A DNA stretch of 64,000 nucleotides, from positions 1 through 64,000 of the forward strand of contig BQJJ01000009.1 in NCBI GenBank assembly GCA_021604645.1, written 5' to 3'. The number at the start of each line of letters is the position of its first letter. Within the stretch, counting starts at the first letter, position 1. The notes below the pieces were generated by a model. That model worked only from the letters and a program-made list of their open reading frames with translations, had not been told where the DNA came from and ran no database searches. This document shows positions 39,743 through 52,076 of the stretch, in pieces. The translations under genes were made by a program, and so were the position numbers. The stretch comes from Methyloligella sp. (GTDB lineage: Bacteria; Pseudomonadota; Alphaproteobacteria; Rhizobiales; HXMU1428-3).

Positions 39743-39988
39743 ATGTCTGACAAAGATTACAAACCTGATTTTAATGTTTACACAATTACTGGTGAAGGCC
39801 GGCAAAAGTATTGGAGCAAGGTTGGTGCTGCCTTTGCGCATAGCGATGGCAAAAAGGGATATAACATTATCCTTTCCGCCTTGCCCCTTGATGGCAAGCT
39901 GGTGCTCATTGATTATGAAGAAGATGAGCAACGCCGGTTAGAGGCTAAAGATCAACCTAAAACTACTAAAAAGGCTACGGCAGCTTAA
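39743..39988 (+). CDS. Small conserved-type hypothetical protein
   Basis: 81 residues with a good ribosome binding site (GAAGGAGACAG). It contains KVGAAFAHSDGKKGYNIILSALPLDGKLVLIDY, which looks like a compact beta-rich domain, followed by a charged tail. Similar small proteins occur beside replication and transfer genes of alphaproteobacterial plasmids, but I cannot name a family. A strong terminator follows. Confidence 0.7.
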   Translation: MSDKDYKPDFNVYTITGEGRQKYWSKVGAAFAHSDGKKGYNIILSALPLDGKLVLIDYEEDEQRRLEAKDQPKTTKKATAA

Positions 39989-40337: not shown

Positions 40338-40425
40338 TTTGTTCACCAGAAAACATGATCGCCAGTTTACTCTCGCCTGCCCCCAGTGGGCGGAGCAATG
40401 GGACAGGCTCCAGGAAACATGGCTT

Positions 40426-41343
40426 TTAAATAATTGATATAGATTGATGGTTTTTTAAGTGCTCGATGATACTTTCGATACCAACTTCTAAGTTAAATGT
40501 TCTTAATGTATATTCCATACTTGCTGCTGAGAGATGGTCCTTTTCTCTTGTCTTTGGTTGCCAGCTCAATAAGCCATAAAACCCTGGCATTTCACTTTCA
40601 ATACCCATTTTTGACCATTGATTGAAATCATAATCTACATTTACATGAACAGAATTGATAGAATCTATTCTAACAAATCCAATTGGTTCAATATTGTTGA
40701 TATCACTGTAATGGTAATAGCCTAATAATTGAAATGTTTTTCTAATTTTATCTATTGAAAACGCTAAAGTATATGAGCTAACAGTTGTGTCTTTTAATTC
40801 AAACTTTCTAAGATGAGTTCCAAGAAAATATATTTTTTCTCCTAGAACATATGCAATACCTGCCTCTGTCTTGTCGTAAAATTTATTTTTAGTTCGTGTA
40901 GATTGATTTTTCCAAACTAATCGATAGGAAAGATAACCTTTCTTCATACCTATTAACATAAATAAAAATTGGGCTTTTTTTGTTTTAGTGTTTTTTCTTA
41001 TACCAATGTAAAGCCCTCCTAGATCTACAATTGAGGGACGTGATTGGTGGCTGATATTTTCTAAAGTTTTTATAACACCATATTTATCAAAAACGTCTTT
41101 GTTTAGAGGGCCTAATATTTTCTCTAAGCCACCAGCTTGGTCAACAAATTCAATAATATCTTTTACGGTCTGATTGTATTGAGTCTTAGCGTTTTTTCCT
41201 CTTATGAAATTTCTTAAGTATTCAATTTCGCAGTTAAGAATATTTGTTATTTCTTTATAAGAGGATCTTTTCACTAATACATGAATTGCTTTGCGATATA
41301 AATTTAGTTCACTAGCATCTATTTTAATAATGTCATGTTCCAT
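40426..41343 (-). CDS. Hypothetical protein
   Basis: 305 residues with no recognised family. The first about 70 residues (KAIHVLVKRSSYKEITNILNCEIEYLRNFIRGKN) resemble a DNA-binding helical unit. The rest is beta-rich (GGLYIGIRKNTKTKKAQFLFMLIGMKKGYLSYRLVW is the most regular part). It is divergent from the excisionase-like gene, with paired CCGGTAAA direct repeats between them. It may be a regulator. Base use is more AT-rich than its neighbours. Confidence 0.65.
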   Translation of the reverse strand: MEHDIIKIDASELNLYRKAIHVLVKRSSYKEITNILNCEIEYLRNFIRGKNAKTQYNQTVKDIIEFVDQAGGLEKILGPLNKDVFDKYGVIKTLENISHQSRPSIVDLGGLYIGIRKNTKTKKAQFLFMLIGMKKGYLSYRLVWKNQSTRTKNKFYDKTEAGIAYVLGEKIYFLGTHLRKFELKDTTVSSYTLAFSIDKIRKTFQLLGYYHYSDINNIEPIGFVRIDSINSVHVNVDYDFNQWSKMGIESEMPGFYGLLSWQPKTREKDHLSAASMEYTLRTFNLEVGIESIIEHLKNHQSISII

Positions 41344-41787: not shown

Positions 41788-42783
41788 ATGACAGAATATA
41801 ACCAACCCCTTCATCATATCACCCCATCAGGTAAGTACCGCAATTGGCGCAAACATCGGTTGCAAGCCATTGCCTTAGGGGCGGCATACAAACGTTTAGG
41901 GGTTGGTTTTCAGAAAAAAGCAGAACGAGTGTTTGTGTGCTCTCGCCGGATTGATTTCACAAAACCACAAGATGACCAACTGGGATCAACAGTTGTTAAC
42001 CGCTATGGCTGCAAAGATCGTCTTTGTCCAGGTTGTCAATCTTCCCGATCACGTAAGAACTTTATGGAATTGATGCAACTCTATCAGCGTTACCATGAGG
42101 CTTACCCTGGTGACCGGGCCGCAATGCTAACACTGACTATTCCCAATGTGTCCGTTTCAACTATGAAAGAAGAGCTAAGTGCTCTTCTCACCGGCTTTAG
42201 AAAGCTTACCCGCCGCAAGCCCTTTGAACATGCTGTAAGAGCTTGGTTTCGGGCGCTAGAAGTTTCATATAACCCAAACACCGGTCTTTATCACCCGCAT
42301 ATTCATGCGTTGCTTCTGTTTCCACCTCACTATTTTGATAAACAACATAATTATTATCTCAAGCATCAGCAGTGGTTGAAGCTCTGGCAGCAGGTTATGC
42401 GCCGAACGGATATTAAACATCTCGACATTCGGATGCTTAAACCACACCCGCAAGACATCACAGGTAATGTCAAATCACCTGTGATGGGCAAGGCCATTGC
42501 AGAAATTGCGAAATATGCCACGAAACCAGCCGATATTTTTATGCCAAGAGGCCGCGGTTTTGCCGTTGATGAGAAGGTTATCTTTGCTCTTGCTTACACA
42601 CTTAAACACCGGCGTTTGATCGCCTACAGCAAAGTCTTTCGGGAATATCGCCGAGAGAATAAATCACAAATAACAGAATCCAAGATGGATGACTTAGATG
42701 TCTATATCTGGATGGAGCAGCCGGATGTGCAGACGGCTGATTACTACCTCCATGAAGAAACTGCATTTAACACTAAACTTTAA
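41788..42783 (+). CDS. Rolling-circle replication initiator (Rep_1-like, HUH)
   Basis: 331 residues. A zinc-finger-like segment is CKDRLCPGCQSSRSRKNF (about 72-89), followed by motif I AMLTLTIPNVSV and HUH motif YHPHIHALLLFPP (about 167-179). The motif III region EIAKYATKPADIF (about 239-251) places the nicking tyrosine and lysine. This is the pattern of Rep proteins of small rolling-circle plasmids. It is followed within 15 bp by a small gene and then the FtsK-type translocase. Confidence 0.85.
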   Translation: MTEYNQPLHHITPSGKYRNWRKHRLQAIALGAAYKRLGVGFQKKAERVFVCSRRIDFTKPQDDQLGSTVVNRYGCKDRLCPGCQSSRSRKNFMELMQLYQRYHEAYPGDRAAMLTLTIPNVSVSTMKEELSALLTGFRKLTRRKPFEHAVRAWFRALEVSYNPNTGLYHPHIHALLLFPPHYFDKQHNYYLKHQQWLKLWQQVMRRTDIKHLDIRMLKPHPQDITGNVKSPVMGKAIAEIAKYATKPADIFMPRGRGFAVDEKVIFALAYTLKHRRLIAYSKVFREYRRENKSQITESKMDDLDVYIWMEQPDVQTADYYLHEETAFNTKL

Positions 42784-43185: not shown

Positions 43186-45027
43186 ATGATTGATACTCGC
43201 ACTAAATTAGAAAAAACCCTTGGAAGGTTAGCCTACAATTATGTGGGTACAGCCTTACGGACCCAATTATGGATGGTTTTTGGACTATCCATCACTTACT
43301 TTATGCATAAGCCAGGTGAGCCTTTTTTTGATAGCTTATTCGTGTACCTTACCGCGATGACCTTTAGCTTTGGTTTTTTCTTTCCCTATCTGTCCACTTA
43401 TTTAAGACACTATACAGCCAATGCAAAAGGTCCGCCCCATCTTTGGTGGCTTATTGTTGAAAGAACCATGTTACCGATATTCTTTATAGTTTTTTGCAAC
43501 ATAGCAAAGCAACGCTTAGACCGTCACTATTCCATCGGGCAGCAATGGATCAGCAGTTCCAAAAAACTTTGCCTATTAGAACAATCGGATAAACTTGTCG
43601 AACTATCAGACAAACTTGCTCAAGAAAATGAGCAAAAACAAACGCGTCTGCTTAAAATTATCAATTGGGGAATGAAGCGTTACAGAAATCAAAGCACCCA
43701 TAAATTTGTCAATGCCATGCGAGCGGTTGGCCAACATATTGATGAACTAGAGCCGCATTATAATTGGGGAACTAGTGAAGAGACTTTATGTAATTTGTTT
43801 GAGCGGTATAATTATGGTCTTCCAACTCATAAAGAACTGATTGAAGACAGATACCGCACTAAGATGTCTCCAAGTTATGATGGCAAACATCTTCCTGAGA
43901 TCTCACCGCAACAACCAACATTTGAAGGCAAGATGTTATATCTTGCTGTGCTCATCAGAGCTGAACAAGATAAGCACTATAACAAATTGGATTTTAAACG
44001 ATCTGATTTTAAAAGGGGACACTTTGTCTATAAGTCTGATCGAAGTGCTATTGATATTGATTATTGGAAAAGAAACCTGCCAGCTATCAATGTTTATCTT
44101 GGTGGTGAATGGATGGTCGAGCCTATAGACGGCACCTCTCTCATGCTTTTTAAACTGCAAGAATTACCACCGGTCATTCCGTTTCAGACAGAATTTTTAC
44201 GAGACGGTGAAATCTTCTATGGCTTTAACGTCAGAACGGGGGAGCGCTATTATAATGATCTTGATAAATTCCCACATCATCTCATTGTTGGTCAATCGGG
44301 CTCTGGAAAGTCAGTGTTTTTAAATCAAGTGATGGCGTCTGTTATTCACAACATGGATTATTTTGAAAAGATTGTCCTGGTTGATTTAAAGGGTGGTGTA
44401 GAGCTTGGAAAATATGAAGGGCTGCATTCAAACATTGAGTTGGTTGATGATTATGATGCTCTCTTGGGTAGTGTTGAAAAAGTCTATGCGCAATTGGAAG
44501 CACGCCTTAAACTTATGAAACAAAAAGGTCATACCATTTTTGACGGTCCGCATTTGTGTATGATCGTTGATGAATATGCTCAAATCCAACAGTTTGAACC
44601 AATCACCAAACAAGAAAAAGAAGCTTATAAGCTTTTGCTCTCCTATTTAAATCGCATTTCAATGAAGGGGCGTGCAGCTCGGGTGACCATCTGGGCGCAA
44701 CTTCAAAAAGCTACCGTGGATAATATTAGTTCCAGCTTTAGAAACAACCTTCAGACTAAAATTTGTTTCAAAGTCCATTCTAACACCGATGCAGCAATTG
44801 TATTTGGTAACGCTGCTGATTTGCCAGGCATAGCTTCATTAGGTGGGTTCAAGAATTTGCCGAAGGGTCGTTTTGTATTAAGTGATGATGTCACAGGTGA
44901 AGATGTGTATATGCAAGCAGCGATGCTAGATGACGGGGTTCCGCTGGCCCGTCTACTTCAGACGGCTGGCGGTGCACGAGTGGTAAGTGAGGAGCAAGTC
45001 GACGAGCAAGTGCGTGAGGCCGAGTGA
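43186..45027 (+). CDS. FtsK/SpoIIIE domain DNA translocase
   Basis: 613 residues. Two to three N-terminal membrane segments lie at about 27-45, 53-75 and 87-108. A long helical linker follows. The ATPase domain carries Walker A HHLIVGQSGSGKSVFLNQ (about 365-382) and Walker B CMIVDEYAQIQQFE (about 457-470). RAARVTIWAQLQKA then fits the FtsK/SpoIIIE fold. With the adjacent Rep it recalls actinobacterial-type elements in which a single TraB/FtsK pump moves DNA, but it might also serve replication or partition of the element. Confidence 0.88.
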   Translation: MIDTRTKLEKTLGRLAYNYVGTALRTQLWMVFGLSITYFMHKPGEPFFDSLFVYLTAMTFSFGFFFPYLSTYLRHYTANAKGPPHLWWLIVERTMLPIFFIVFCNIAKQRLDRHYSIGQQWISSSKKLCLLEQSDKLVELSDKLAQENEQKQTRLLKIINWGMKRYRNQSTHKFVNAMRAVGQHIDELEPHYNWGTSEETLCNLFERYNYGLPTHKELIEDRYRTKMSPSYDGKHLPEISPQQPTFEGKMLYLAVLIRAEQDKHYNKLDFKRSDFKRGHFVYKSDRSAIDIDYWKRNLPAINVYLGGEWMVEPIDGTSLMLFKLQELPPVIPFQTEFLRDGEIFYGFNVRTGERYYNDLDKFPHHLIVGQSGSGKSVFLNQVMASVIHNMDYFEKIVLVDLKGGVELGKYEGLHSNIELVDDYDALLGSVEKVYAQLEARLKLMKQKGHTIFDGPHLCMIVDEYAQIQQFEPITKQEKEAYKLLLSYLNRISMKGRAARVTIWAQLQKATVDNISSSFRNNLQTKICFKVHSNTDAAIVFGNAADLPGIASLGGFKNLPKGRFVLSDDVTGEDVYMQAAMLDDGVPLARLLQTAGGARVVSEEQVDEQVREAE

Positions 45028-45238
45028 GCGGAGCGAAGGAGGGTGATAAAACGAGAGAGGAGGGCTTGTGACAAGCGTTCGCGAGTGCATGGCTAGAGGA
45101 TCGATAGATCGCCAGCGGAAGCGCGGCGGATGGCAGATCTCTTAAATGAAACAACACAACCTTGAACTCAGAAGGAAAGAGATAAGGGAGTGAGACGAAT
45201 TTATGACCGTAACTAAAGTCAGCGAGATACAGCAAAGA

Positions 45239-45262
45239 GGCCAGGGTTTTATTACTCTGGCC
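45239..45262. terminator. Bidirectional hairpin between convergent genes
   Basis: GGCCAG...CTGGCC with inner GT/AC pairs around TTTATT, between the FtsK-type gene and the small gene on the other strand. T-rich sequence follows on the plus strand. Confidence 0.6.
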
Positions 45263-45280
45263 ATTCTTATTTGATTTCAT

Positions 45281-45421
45281 TTAAAACCAACCGCGTCTGG
45301 CTCTTTTCTTAGCGCGGCGTCGTTTTATCCAAGTGGTATAAAAGCGACGCAACTTGGCAAATAGGTGCATCGACACATAAAGAATAAAAGCCGATTTCCA
45401 AAGTAGTAGTTCAAATTCCAT
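45281..45421 (-). CDS. Very small membrane protein (46 aa)
   Basis: Begins MEFELLLWKSAFILYVSMHL and ends in a strongly basic tail (WIKRRRAKKRARRGWF). A good AAGGAG site lies 8 bp before the ATG. One membrane helix with a positive cytoplasmic end is predicted by eye. It lies directly downstream of the double hairpin at 45465-45661 and could be expressed from it. Function unknown. Confidence 0.6.
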   Translation of the reverse strand: MEFELLLWKSAFILYVSMHLFAKLRRFYTTWIKRRRAKKRARRGWF

Positions 45422-45464
45422 AAGTCATTTCTCCTTGTTGTTGATTAAGAGTAGTATGGCGGAG

Positions 45465-45577
45465 ATCTCTAGCCTTTTCACAGCCGAGGGGCTCCCGTCT
45501 GCAAGCGGAATATAAAATATTACCCGAAGGGTTCTATATCCGCTGAAGATGGGAAACGGCTTGAAAAGGCTAGAGAT
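45465..45577. promoter_or_regulatory. Long imperfect hairpin H1
   Basis: Nested perfect arms: 16 bp (45465-45480 with 45562-45577), AGCCG/CGGCT, CCCGTCT/AGATGGG, AGCGGA/TCCGCT, TATA/TATA and ACCC/GGGT. About 40 pairs in 113 nt. It lies upstream of the 46-aa gene and after the end of ardA. It is a candidate single-strand promoter, single-strand origin or mRNA control fold. Confidence 0.75.
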
Positions 45578-45589
45578 GATAACAGAATG

Positions 45590-45661
45590 CCCCATGAGAG
45601 CCTGGACAAGGGAGCAGCCCCCATATAGCTGGAGACCGCTGGCCAGGCATCTCTCATGGGG
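45590..45661. promoter_or_regulatory. Second hairpin H1b
   Basis: 11-bp perfect arms CCCCATGAGAG/CTCTCATGGGG (45590-45600/45651-45661), then CCTGG/CCAGG inside. It adjoins H1, so the 200-bp stretch after ardA is nearly all foldable. Confidence 0.7.
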
Positions 45662-45686
45662 GAAATGCAACTTAAAAAACACTTGT

Positions 45687-46193
45687 CTAAGGACAAATGT
45701 AGATAAAGTTTTTTCCAGCAATCATAACTTCTGCGTACTCCATAGAGAGATTGTAGGCGATTGATTCATAGTCAATGTACCATTCAAGCGCTTTAGGGAT
45801 CTCACCAAAGAGGCCTTCTTCAACAAAGTGTTCAGCAAGTTCAGTCATGTTTCTGAACTGATAGAGAGTGACATCAAAGTCATCGGGATTAACCGTTTGA
45901 GGGTCGAAGTCATAGCCGCATTCGCCTATTGCGATGATAAAGCATTGTTTCTCATACTCAGACCAATTATCAGTAACTTTGAAAAAACTCTCCAGTGAGC
46001 ATTGAGATAAGCCCCAGGCATTTGCCAGCGCTACATCAATGCTTTCGCCTTCTATAAACTGGATTTCATATTCTTCAACGGGCTGATTATAATCATTTCG
46101 GTTGACTTTGGCTTGTTTGAGATACTCTTCTGCATTGTCGAAATAAAAGCCTGAAGCTGAAATGTCGTAAGGTTGAGCATATAGGGTTGTCAT
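45687..46193 (-). CDS. ardA: Antirestriction protein ArdA
   Basis: 168 residues, the normal ArdA size. ArdA is an acidic DNA mimic that blocks type I restriction enzymes during entry of a mobile element. Seen here are TLYAQPYDISASGFYFDNAE, many Asp/Glu residues (ESIDVALANAW, DDFDVTLYQF) and the conserved end YFIDYESIAYNL-type segment (WYIDYESIAYNLSMEYAEV). The ATG at 46193, behind AAAAGGAGAAAC, is preferred over an upstream in-frame start. That ribosome binding site lies in the outer arm of a 191-nt palindrome. Confidence 0.93.
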   Translation of the reverse strand: MTTLYAQPYDISASGFYFDNAEEYLKQAKVNRNDYNQPVEEYEIQFIEGESIDVALANAWGLSQCSLESFFKVTDNWSEYEKQCFIIAIGECGYDFDPQTVNPDDFDVTLYQFRNMTELAEHFVEEGLFGEIPKALEWYIDYESIAYNLSMEYAEVMIAGKNFIYICP

Positions 46194-46384
46194 GATTGTT
46201 TCTCCTTTTGTTTTCAAGACAGCGGAGAGACAAGCCGGGTGCTGAGCGCCAAGGGTCACTGACAGCTTTGCTGGAAGGAAACGGCCAACACGGGCTTCCT
46301 TTAAGCTGGCGCGGGCAGGCCGTTGACCCTGCGCTCCAAACCGCTAGACAGCAGCAACTTGAATAAACAAAAGGAGAAACAATC
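46194..46384. promoter_or_regulatory. 191-nt imperfect palindrome H2 in front of ardA
   Basis: Outer arms of 20 bp are perfect: GATTGTTTCTCCTTTTGTTT (46194-46213) with its complement at 46365-46384. Further nested arms are TCAAG/CTTGA, AGCGG/CCGCT, GAGCGC/GCGCTC, AGGGTCA/TGACCCT, CAGCTT/AAGCTG and AAGGAA/TTCCTT. The left arm is the ardA ribosome binding site. As RNA this would hide the site. As single-stranded DNA it would give a double-stranded promoter-like stem. Confidence 0.8.
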
Positions 46385-46689
46385 TGATAACAATGCTTGT
46401 AACTGAACAAATTTAATCTGGCTCATTGAGACGTCAGTGTTCTCATGACCTTCAAGCACAATTGAAAGGACTTAAATTAGTTAGCTAAGAATTATCGGTT
46501 TTAAGAAACGGTAATTCAATGATTTGCGCTTTCAAGTGTTGAATAGCGGCTTCTAGGCTTACTGTTTTTATAGCATCTGATAACAGCGTATGTTTATGAG
46601 AATTAGATGCTTTTTTCTTATATATCGACTTCCCGTTCAAGCCTCTTCTTCAATGTTCATCCCAACATCTGTATTGTTTTCGCCGCGCT
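46385..46689. other. Gap between the ardA and ardC leaders
   Basis: About 305 bp of AT-rich DNA without supported genes. Promoters for either divergent gene could lie here, but none was clear. Confidence 0.35.
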
Positions 46690-46868
46690 CTTTTCAAGCA
46701 ACAGCTCTTGCTGCCTTTCGCTTTCCTATGGTGCGTAACGTGCTTCCCGTCTGGATGCAATGAGCTTCCGCACCAAGTGACCGAGAAGCTATGCATCCAG
46801 CCGCTCAGCACGTTCTCTCCCGCACCATCGAAAGGCAGTTGTTTCAGAGCTGTCTTAATTTTGAAAAG
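46690..46868. promoter_or_regulatory. 179-nt imperfect palindrome H3 in front of ardC
   Basis: Seven nested perfect arms, about 56 pairs. CTTTTCAA/TTGAAAAG (46690/46861), ACAGCTCT/AGAGCTGT (46701/46846), CTGCCTTTCG/CGAAAGGCAG (46711/46829) and ATGGTGCG/CGCACCAT (46728/46821) come first. AACGTGCT/AGCACGTT (46737/46807), CTGGATGC/GCATCCAG (46751/46793) and AGCTTC/GAAGCT (46763/46785) follow. The right outer arm runs into the AAAAGGAG ribosome binding site of ardC. Confidence 0.85.
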
Positions 46869-46878
46869 GAGAGCTCTT

Positions 46879-47763
46879 ATGAAAAAAAGCAAAAAAGATA
46901 TTTATCAAACAGTGACTGATCAGATTATTACGGCACTTGAGCAAGACACAGGAGATCCACAAATGCCCTGGCAACGCAGTGGATTTCAAACAGGCTTACC
47001 AACCAATGCTTCCACCCAAAATGAATATCAAGGCATTAACATTCTTTCATTATGGGCTTCAGCAATGACACAACAATTTGAACAAGGGCTTTGGGCCACT
47101 TATCGCCAATGGCAAGCCATCGATTGCCAGGTTAAACGGGGTTCTAAAGCCAGTATGGTTGTTTTCTATAAGGAATACAAAGTAGACCCAAGCGCTGTTA
47201 ATGAGGCAGAGGGAGATGACGGCAAGCGCCGTGTGGCAAAAGCCAGCCAAGTCTTTAATGTCGCTCAGGTTGAGGGTTATAATCAAGAAAAGATTATTAA
47301 ACCACAACCCCCAATGGATCGTATTTTAAAAGCCGATCAATTTATTCAATCTTCTTCTGCCACCATTAAATTTGGTGGAGACCGAGCATATTACCAGCCA
47401 GCCACTGATCATATTCAAATGCCGGATGAACATCTATTTATTGGAACTGAAACTTTCAATCGTCAGGAAGCCTATTATGCCGTGCTGCTTCATGAACTTA
47501 CTCATTGGACCGGCCATACATATCGCCTTAACCGTTCGTTTAGTGACCGTTTTGGAAATGAAGCTTATGCAATAGAAGAACTGGTTGCTGAACTTGGTTC
47601 TGCTTTTCTCTGTGCTGATCTAAACATCACACCTGAGACTAGACCAGATCATGCTAAATATATTCAATCATGGCTTAAAGTTATGAAAGCCGATAATCGT
47701 GCCGTCTTTGCTGCGGCTTCTAAAGCGCAGGAAGCAGTGCGTTTTTTAAAACAGCTAATATAG
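46879..47763 (+). CDS. ArdC-like antirestriction protein (ssDNA-binding domain plus zincin-like metallopeptidase domain)
   Basis: 294 residues from the ATG behind AAAAGGAGAGC. The N-terminal ssDNA-binding half has YQTVTDQIITALEQ, MPWQRSGF and NILSLWASAMTQQF. The C-terminal zincin-like half has VLLHELTHWTGHTYRLNR (HExxH, about 203-207) and the downstream glutamate in YAIEELVAELGSAFL. ArdC-type proteins protect entering single-stranded plasmid DNA against restriction. The gene is divergent from ardA. A terminator follows. Confidence 0.9.
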   Translation: MKKSKKDIYQTVTDQIITALEQDTGDPQMPWQRSGFQTGLPTNASTQNEYQGINILSLWASAMTQQFEQGLWATYRQWQAIDCQVKRGSKASMVVFYKEYKVDPSAVNEAEGDDGKRRVAKASQVFNVAQVEGYNQEKIIKPQPPMDRILKADQFIQSSSATIKFGGDRAYYQPATDHIQMPDEHLFIGTETFNRQEAYYAVLLHELTHWTGHTYRLNRSFSDRFGNEAYAIEELVAELGSAFLCADLNITPETRPDHAKYIQSWLKVMKADNRAVFAAASKAQEAVRFLKQLI

Positions 47764-47769
47764 ACGAAA

Positions 47770-47800
47770 AATGAGACGGATTATCTCCGTCTCATTCTTT
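47770..47800 (+). terminator. Terminator after the ArdC-like gene
   Basis: Perfect 11-bp stem AATGAGACGGA/TCCGTCTCATT around TTATC, followed by CTTT. Confidence 0.88.
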
Positions 47801-50707: not shown

Positions 50708-51862
50708 CTAAACCATTCTATTTTTCATCGTATCTTTGATCAAGTGGCCTACTTCTTCGTTTAATTCCTTTACAGGATTATTGGTGATGTGAGCATATCT
50801 TTCCGTAGTCGTAGATTTCTTATGCCCTAGTAATTTTCCAATGTGCAGCAATGATGCTCCACTTTCAGCTGCTGTTGATGCAAAAGAATGCCGTAGATCG
50901 TGAATTCGAAAATTCTCTAAACGAGCTGTCTTTCTCACAATAACCCAGGGTTTTTGAATATTGACCATCGACCGGCAATAGACTTTGCCAACAATGACAT
51001 ATGGATTGTTTGTCTGTCTTGGAATTGATTGAAGAACTGCCATTGCTGGTTCATTGAGATTGATTGATTTCGCTCCGGTCTTAGAATCGGGTAAAAAGAT
51101 CACCTGCTTTTCATAGTTGATATACTCCCACTTTAAATTGAGGATCTCACCTTTTCGTGCACCAGTGAATATCAATAATCGTATGGCAGCAGCTGCATAA
51201 AGTGAGATCCTCCCCTTGGCCTCTTCTTCACTAATGGCACCACCCAGGCGACTAAGCTCCTCTTTTGATAAATAACGCTCAACTTTATTTTCTGTAAATC
51301 TTTTGATCCCCTTACAAGGGTTGCTATTGATTGGACGGTACCCATATTCTTCTGCCCAGCTCATTATCACTGAAATAACCATGAGAGTTACATTTGCATA
51401 GCGAGGTGTATGAGCATATTTGTGATGCAACTTCGTAATGTCGGGCCGAGAAATTTCGCTTATGATCATTTTTCCTAAAAAAGGTAAAATTTTCTTGTCA
51501 ATCACAGCGCTATATTCGCGACGGGTTGTTGGCTTAATATTTGGATAGTGTGATTGCTTAAAATGATCCACCAGCTCTTTGAGTGAGACTGCCGTTTCTT
51601 TTTCTTTCGCTGTCTGTATTGGATCAACTTTAAAAGCCATTGCTTGACGACGGGCTGTATCTGGCGTCCAGGGTAAACCATGACGGCCAATGGTGATGAA
51701 CTTCTGTTTACCCCGAATGCACGTCTTTAGAAAATAACTTGCACTCAGTCTTTGACGTCTCACGCCAAAGCCCTTGAGGGAGGTGTCATAGACAGTGTCA
51801 CCCGGTTGCAACCGTTCCACCACAGTTTTATTGATATGTGCACGAAAGCTCTTTTTATCCAT
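50708..51862 (-). CDS. Tyrosine-type integrase
   Basis: 384-residue phage-type recombinase of the element. The N-terminal arm-binding region (GDTVYDTSLKGFGVRR) is typical of P4-like integrases. The catalytic residues are Arg in FTGARKGEILNLKWE (about 233), the HxxR box HDLRHSFAS (about 319-327), His in LLGHKKSTTTERY and the nucleophile Tyr in ERYAHI (about 357). It lies about 150 bp from the right attachment site, as is usual for tRNA-targeting integrases. Confidence 0.95.
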   Translation of the reverse strand: MDKKSFRAHINKTVVERLQPGDTVYDTSLKGFGVRRQRLSASYFLKTCIRGKQKFITIGRHGLPWTPDTARRQAMAFKVDPIQTAKEKETAVSLKELVDHFKQSHYPNIKPTTRREYSAVIDKKILPFLGKMIISEISRPDITKLHHKYAHTPRYANVTLMVISVIMSWAEEYGYRPINSNPCKGIKRFTENKVERYLSKEELSRLGGAISEEEAKGRISLYAAAAIRLLIFTGARKGEILNLKWEYINYEKQVIFLPDSKTGAKSINLNEPAMAVLQSIPRQTNNPYVIVGKVYCRSMVNIQKPWVIVRKTARLENFRIHDLRHSFASTAAESGASLLHIGKLLGHKKSTTTERYAHITNNPVKELNEEVGHLIKDTMKNRMV

Positions 51863-52013
51863 CAGTATGTCCTCAGCTACAAAGTAAGAATACCTAAATA
51901 GCTACAAACGAGCTACAGATTGGATGGATATTGCTGCGTAACAGCATATGAGTGTGTCGGTAAACAATTGAAAAAATGGTGTTATATCAACCTGCTTCGC
52001 AGCTGCAGCATTT

Positions 52014-52076
52014 TAGAGCAACTGCCTTCTAAGCAGTAGGTCCGAGGTTCGAATCCTCGTGGGATCGCCATTCTTT
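52014..52076 (+). repeat. Right attachment site (tRNA-Arg 3' copy)
   Basis: Identical to 21446-21508. It includes the anticodon arm, T-arm and CCA of tRNA-Arg but not its 5' half, so it is not a functional tRNA. Confidence 0.93.

Follow-up and report, generated by a model that had tools for sequence, protein, structure and literature searches.

In the window, the whole 64-kb stretch of DNA that was analyzed, the anti-restriction gene ardA is preceded by a long palindrome that, as a member of a family of related leaders, is probably an Frpo-like single-stranded DNA (ssDNA) promoter. Our confidence is lower that the element in the window itself uses the leader in this manner. Both predictions were made from sequence comparisons and calculated folds. 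Within the window is an integrated mobile element from an alphaproteobacterium. It encodes a Rep_1 protein of the pC194-type HUH group (41788..42783, + strand; Pfam Rep_1, E 1.8e-57), which is the presumed relaxase or initiator of the element; a presumed DNA pump with a domain match to FtsK/SpoIIIE-type proteins (43186..45027, + strand); and ArdA (168 aa; 45687..46193, - strand), for which the Pfam ArdA match (E 1.9e-5) scored 25.8 bits, below the cut-off of 27. Also encoded are ArdC (46879..47763, + strand), with Pfam ArdcN and zincin-like metallopeptidase domains, a HEPN-domain protein, a DUF3644 protein, and, next to a tRNA match (52009-52067), a tyrosine integrase (50708-51862). The element core is duplicated on contig C17 of the same genome (locus L006), where the copy is 88% identical over 43607-47779; the genome has four ardC genes in all. 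A transfer origin was looked for in the window element and not found. A non-coding stretch at 40344-40430, about 90% conserved among the window element, the C17 copy, and the relative L008, contains a GC-rich inverted repeat and is only a candidate for the nick site or transfer origin of the Rep_1 element.

The first-pass annotation described, before ardA, perfect outer arms of 20 bp that lie 151 bp from each other, with the ardA ribosome binding region as the outer left arm and nested arms between, and this description held up. Each outer arm (46194-46213 and 46365-46384) has 20 nt; the two are 100% complementary across a gap of 151 nt, and no other perfect inverted repeat in the window reaches this length (gaps of up to 400 nt). 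The maxima in 60 dinucleotide shuffles of the window were 11 to 16 bp. The ribosome binding site (RBS) AAAGGAG (46202-46208, - strand) is inside the gene-side arm, directly 5' of the ATG at 46193-46191, and the distal arm is the anti-RBS copy. The nested arms are real, as the fold z-scores of the leader hairpin (46191..46392) are in the range of -5 to -6: -58.4 kcal/mol and z -6.3 for the + strand folded as DNA, -51.8 kcal/mol and z -5.2 for the - strand folded as DNA, and z -6.0 for the RNA. The ardA leader has also been kept better than its surroundings, because it is 95.7% identical to the C17 copy and 93.7% identical to L008, versus 88% and 81%, respectively, for the enclosing blocks. An origin as a MITE or other dispersed repeat was rejected because the palindrome occurs in only two copies in the genome, each before ardA. 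Rfam returned nothing at E<=1 for the ardA leader or for eight other loci with the motif described below, which speaks against a known riboregulator; blastn of the leader DNA against plasmids gave no match, and exact leader patterns were absent from viral contigs. Two further hairpins are located nearby. One, at 45465-45577 (RNA z -4.9), has 16-bp perfect arms, exceeded among the perfect inverted repeats in the window only by those of the ardA palindrome, and behind it is a gene, with an RBS, for a 46-aa putative membrane protein (45281-45421, - strand). The other is a strong hairpin at 45590-45665.

Perfect outer arms are not found before every ardA. Most of the leaders from 80 ardA loci carry other hairpins and, because perfect arms are rare, the search turned to a common core. 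Many of the 80 leaders fold strongly and have a module in common that consists of one strand CCGCRCCA and another strand CCGTG, in either order. The first order was found 38 times among ardA leaders versus 7 in shuffles, and the second order 14 times versus 2.2. The first order was captured in a model, R1, built from 26 sequences with 12 pairs. RNAalifold predicted no pairs on the core alignment, and hence pairs were counted on the stated structure. The stem covariation score of R1 was 0.232, compared with 0.06 to 0.12 for slid versions, and was matched by 0 of 500 shuffles. In the ardA leader the core, arranged as GTCAACGGCCTGC-CCGCGCCA-hairpin-CCGTG-TTGGCC, is at 46273..46332 (- strand; R1 55.9 bits, E 5.6e-13), and it is absent from the hairpin at 45465-45577. 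The comparison of ardA and ardC leaders across related elements that had been suggested from the initial reading yielded a conserved core with a covarying stem. We propose that the strands GCCCGCRCCA and CCGTG, in two circularly permuted forms, may be a recognition module. Circularly permuted cores (CCGTGG...GCCCGCACCA) were observed at L126 3806, L051 1961, L109 1370, and L033 3381, often accompanied by TCTATTTT on the opposite strand. A separate short hairpin, GGTTGCATGCGCAACC, recurs directly 5' of the RBS of ardA or ardC (L010, L063, L105, L102, and others) in several groups, Nitrosomonas included.

A search with R1 that was independent of ardA gave matches in 20 of 385 whole alphaproteobacterial genomes. 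With few exceptions the strong matches were on the strand of a gene, 50 to 95 nt 5' of its RBS and start codon. The genes behind them encode ArdA, ArdC, DUF2958, DUF3768, and ParB-like proteins, as well as small MGLDMYA and KVGAAW proteins without a Pfam match, and we propose that these families may form an establishment regulon. Two or three co-directional R1 copies per element are common (L133, L169, L181, L062, and L079). A later sample of the phylum gave more matches, of which all convincing ones were alphaproteobacterial. The sole matches of that search outside the class (G453 and G718, E 7e-4) look like chance, since either the TTG or a gene is missing. Within the non-subscription literature that was searched, no description of such promoters in alphaproteobacteria was found. 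Small proteins of the type KVGAAW..KDGKGY, which have no Pfam match, are encoded behind leaders at 39743-39985 (+ strand) of the window and at L043 9746, L056 13952, and L181 13736. They are candidates for unknown establishment functions, and the leader of the gene at 39743 has no strong fold.

The strand opposite to the gene, read outward from the core, has promoter-like elements. A TTG is nearly fixed, most commonly as TTGAC, and an A at position 2 of a -10 element follows at a spacer of 16 nt in 34 of 54 leaders (background 19%, P 1.3e-12). TA is present at this spacing in 17 of the 54 (background 2%), and YA in 30 of the 54, versus 9% elsewhere. This signal was not built in, because the -10 is outside the R1 model, and it persists in the 31 leaders outside the R1 training set (P 1.4e-5). 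When template strands of the family were folded as DNA, the -35 was paired with a probability of 0.8 to 0.9, and the -10 A was paired in only 0.40, compared with 0.7 to 0.9 for its neighbors; a second dip was at the expected +1. In the ardA leader, the predicted -35 TTGACC (46323..46328) falls on the non-template side when the + strand folds and is base-paired to the opposite arm; the predicted -10 TAGACA (46345..46350, + strand) follows 16 nt later, and its A 46346 is unpaired (pairing probability 0.00). The -10 consensus is weak in both leaders of the window (TAGACA for ardA and TACGCA for ardC). The TTGACC-TAGACA pair could be read in duplex DNA as well, as an ordinary double-stranded promoter facing away from ardA, in which case the palindrome would do no more than stabilize the mRNA or bind a regulator. 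We regard this as very improbable because such a promoter would be directed away from the gene that always follows, and because it would not account for the conserved distance, the covariation in the stem, or the lack of pairing at the -10. Promoter matches directed toward the gene were not in excess in the duplex just 5' of the RBS (match score 6.46 versus 6.65 in shuffled sequence).

An ssDNA promoter would work as follows. Once single-stranded, the + strand, which is the template for ardA, would fold so that the distal arm supplies the non-template -35 and -10 and the gene-side arm acts as the template. The -35 would be in a duplex, and the -10 A and the +1 region would be in built-in bubbles, which could permit RNA polymerase to open the promoter readily. 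The unpaired template stretch that faces the predicted +1 (about 46357) is at 46219..46237, where the RNA (- strand) would be expected to start within the gene-side arm, giving a predicted 5' untranslated region of about 26 to 44 nt. The RNA would leave via the base of the hairpin and carry a free RBS. The RBS would be in the outer arm because it is within the first transcribed bases. Double-stranded DNA would offer no good promoter inside the hairpin facing the gene, and a read-through mRNA would fold and sequester its RBS, so that ardA would be off while the element is resident and expressed as it enters a cell. A promoter active only while the DNA is single-stranded would make it possible to produce a shield protein upon entry into a new cell. 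We infer the recruitment of the polymerase, the timing of expression, the silencing of read-through, and the presence of the + strand in single-stranded form during transfer of this element.

The initial expectation was that the palindrome functions only as RNA. An mRNA from an ordinary upstream promoter would be locked by pairing of its 5' arm with the RBS, preventing translation until a trigger arrives, as in the fold-back inhibition of the IS10 transposase mRNA. The position of the RBS within a 20-bp stem and the RNA z-score of -6.0 are consistent with such a lock, which would also be workable for divergent genes, and one promoter-like site is located upstream (46519-46491, - strand). That site is no more than expected by chance (0.8 expected), and a lock in the RNA would leave the fixed-spacing -35/-10 pair on the opposite strand without explanation. 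Stem mismatches provided a further comparison. A folded strand can accommodate a G.T mismatch but not its complement, A.C. When G.T and A.C were scored alike in the stems of the 54 leaders, mismatches that are A.C in the coding strand and G.T in the template outnumbered the reverse by 87 to 36.5. The fraction with G.T on the template was 0.70 (CI 0.62 to 0.78), compared with 0.54 expected from composition, and 33 leaders were biased in this direction versus 10 in the other. Without the commonest ardA family the bias was weaker (63 versus 35, CI 0.56 to 0.72). The two leaders of the window are too perfect and have almost no informative mismatches. One core pair (R:T), which is A-U or G.U in the coding strand, would alone favor RNA. 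Nevertheless, the bias suggests that it is the template strand, folded as DNA, and not the mRNA that is under selection. It weakens the RNA-only reading, which we now consider unlikely, although an RNA lock may be a second lock alongside the ssDNA promoter.

If the leaders are ssDNA promoters, the template should be the strand that is transferred. The MOBQ nic sequence TAAGTGCGC occurs in five plasmids that have motif genes, immediately 5' of the relaxase gene or close to it. We take the polarity of this nic, and hence the assignment of the T-strand, to be established knowledge; on this basis the transferred strand is the template for six of the six motif genes in the five plasmids. The MOBQ nic consensus has been published (PMC3832669). 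The structured EGeRS1 leaders of the Bacillus plasmid pLS20, which are also present in several copies per element directly 5' of the RBS of ardC or other establishment genes, block read-through, an activity that would be in accord with an RNA lock (PMC8708921). However, the T-strand of pLS20 is the non-template strand, and the authors rejected an ssDNA promoter, in contrast to the transferred template strand of the MOBQ relatives examined here.

Among known ssDNA promoters, close counterparts are Frpo1 and Frpo2, from plasmid F (Masai and Arai 1997; PMC9849209). Like them, the ardA leader is a long, non-coding, imperfect hairpin directly before an anti-defence or establishment gene, as are the leaders before leading-region genes of F, and a -35 and a -10 are rebuilt in the folded strand, both in the family and, with a weak -10, in the window. 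In Frpo, as in the five MOBQ plasmids, the template is the transferred strand; it folds better than the coding strand, and the stem mismatches of Frpo1 and Frpo2 are biased toward G.T on the template, as in the leaders here. Unlike the present leaders, Frpo has no detected CCGCRCCA/CCGTG module and belongs to another host group with another gene set. No sequence homology to Frpo was detected, and R1 found no significant match in the F leading region (best E 1.7, at Frpo1). The ardA gene of ColIb-P9, which is expressed early (PMC9849209), has a leader with TTGCAT-15-TAAGAT on the T-strand, a paired -35, and an unpaired -10 AAG. The ardA and klcA leaders of ColIb-P9 and F precede the same class of gene and differ in their larger hairpin and their spacer of 15; R1 found no significant match in ColIb leaders (best E 0.16, not at ardA). 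Since R1 misses Frpo and ColIb and the geometry is alike, the predicted mechanism matches that of known ssDNA promoters and the sequence family is separate. One giant hairpin is common to the klcA and ardA leaders of plasmids F and ColIb-P9 (L184 9756; L200 8470 and 16106). ssDNA promoters before anti-defence genes have been put forward as a general design by Samuel et al. 2024, who found candidates via BLAST with known Frpo or by a -35/-10 search in four islands. In the available text of that paper none of the candidates is named as alphaproteobacterial, and the leaders here have their own conserved core (PMC11541004).

Another function of hairpins recognized by RNA polymerase in rolling-circle elements is to act as a single-strand origin (sso). 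At the ardA palindrome, RNA polymerase could prime the complementary strand of a rolling-circle element, with ardA expression being incidental. The Rep_1 protein, which is of the rolling-circle type, is in favor of this possibility, and the two functions are partly compatible because Frpo acts both as a promoter and as a priming site. Nevertheless, we consider an sso an improbable explanation because the motif is at a fixed distance before a defined set of genes, with several co-directional copies per element.

The annotation had also pointed to the palindrome before ardC as having the same architecture with a different sequence. The ardC leader (46690..46872; RNA z -7.4) does fold alike, with the promoter geometry on the - strand: a predicted -35 TTGCAT (46755..46760), a predicted -10 TACGCA (46732..46737) at a spacer of 17 with A 46736 unpaired, and a predicted +1 bulge at 46721-46727 of the folded strand. 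Their sequences differ only in part, since the core CCGCRCCA...CCG(T/A)G is common to both, in ardC as a divergent CTT/AAG subtype (46750..46801, + strand; R1 21.6 bits, E 0.0016). A shared early-expression leader on both anti-restriction genes, as had been suggested, is strongly supported at the level of sequence by the core, the distance to the start codon, the -35/-10 geometry, and the T-strand of the MOBQ plasmids. The accompanying caveat remains. ardA (- strand) and ardC (+ strand) are divergent, and each has the promoter geometry on its own template strand, so that one transferred strand cannot serve both. If one strand alone is transferred, then one of the two leaders does not serve as an ssDNA promoter in conjugation. 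In the other multi-copy elements inspected the motif copies are co-directional, and the window element is the exception. A tentative possibility is that alphaproteobacterial elements have a separate, unnamed family of ssDNA promoters whose own module marks an establishment regulon, and that Rep_1/FtsK elements might use both strands, each being single-stranded at some time in transfer.

The best documentation of ssDNA promoters comes from enterobacterial plasmids, and searches for them rely on resemblance to a few Frpo sequences. In a different bacterial class, a family with a distinct core would mean that the design is wider than searches for Frpo similarity can see. With the R1 profile, establishment genes whose function is unknown can be recognized in plasmids and integrated elements of alphaproteobacteria, and the divergent ardA and ardC pair provides a natural test of a strictly strand-specific ssDNA promoter. 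The TTGAC-16-YA arrangement, with a paired -35 and an unpaired -10 A, makes the opening of ssDNA promoters testable by point mutations.
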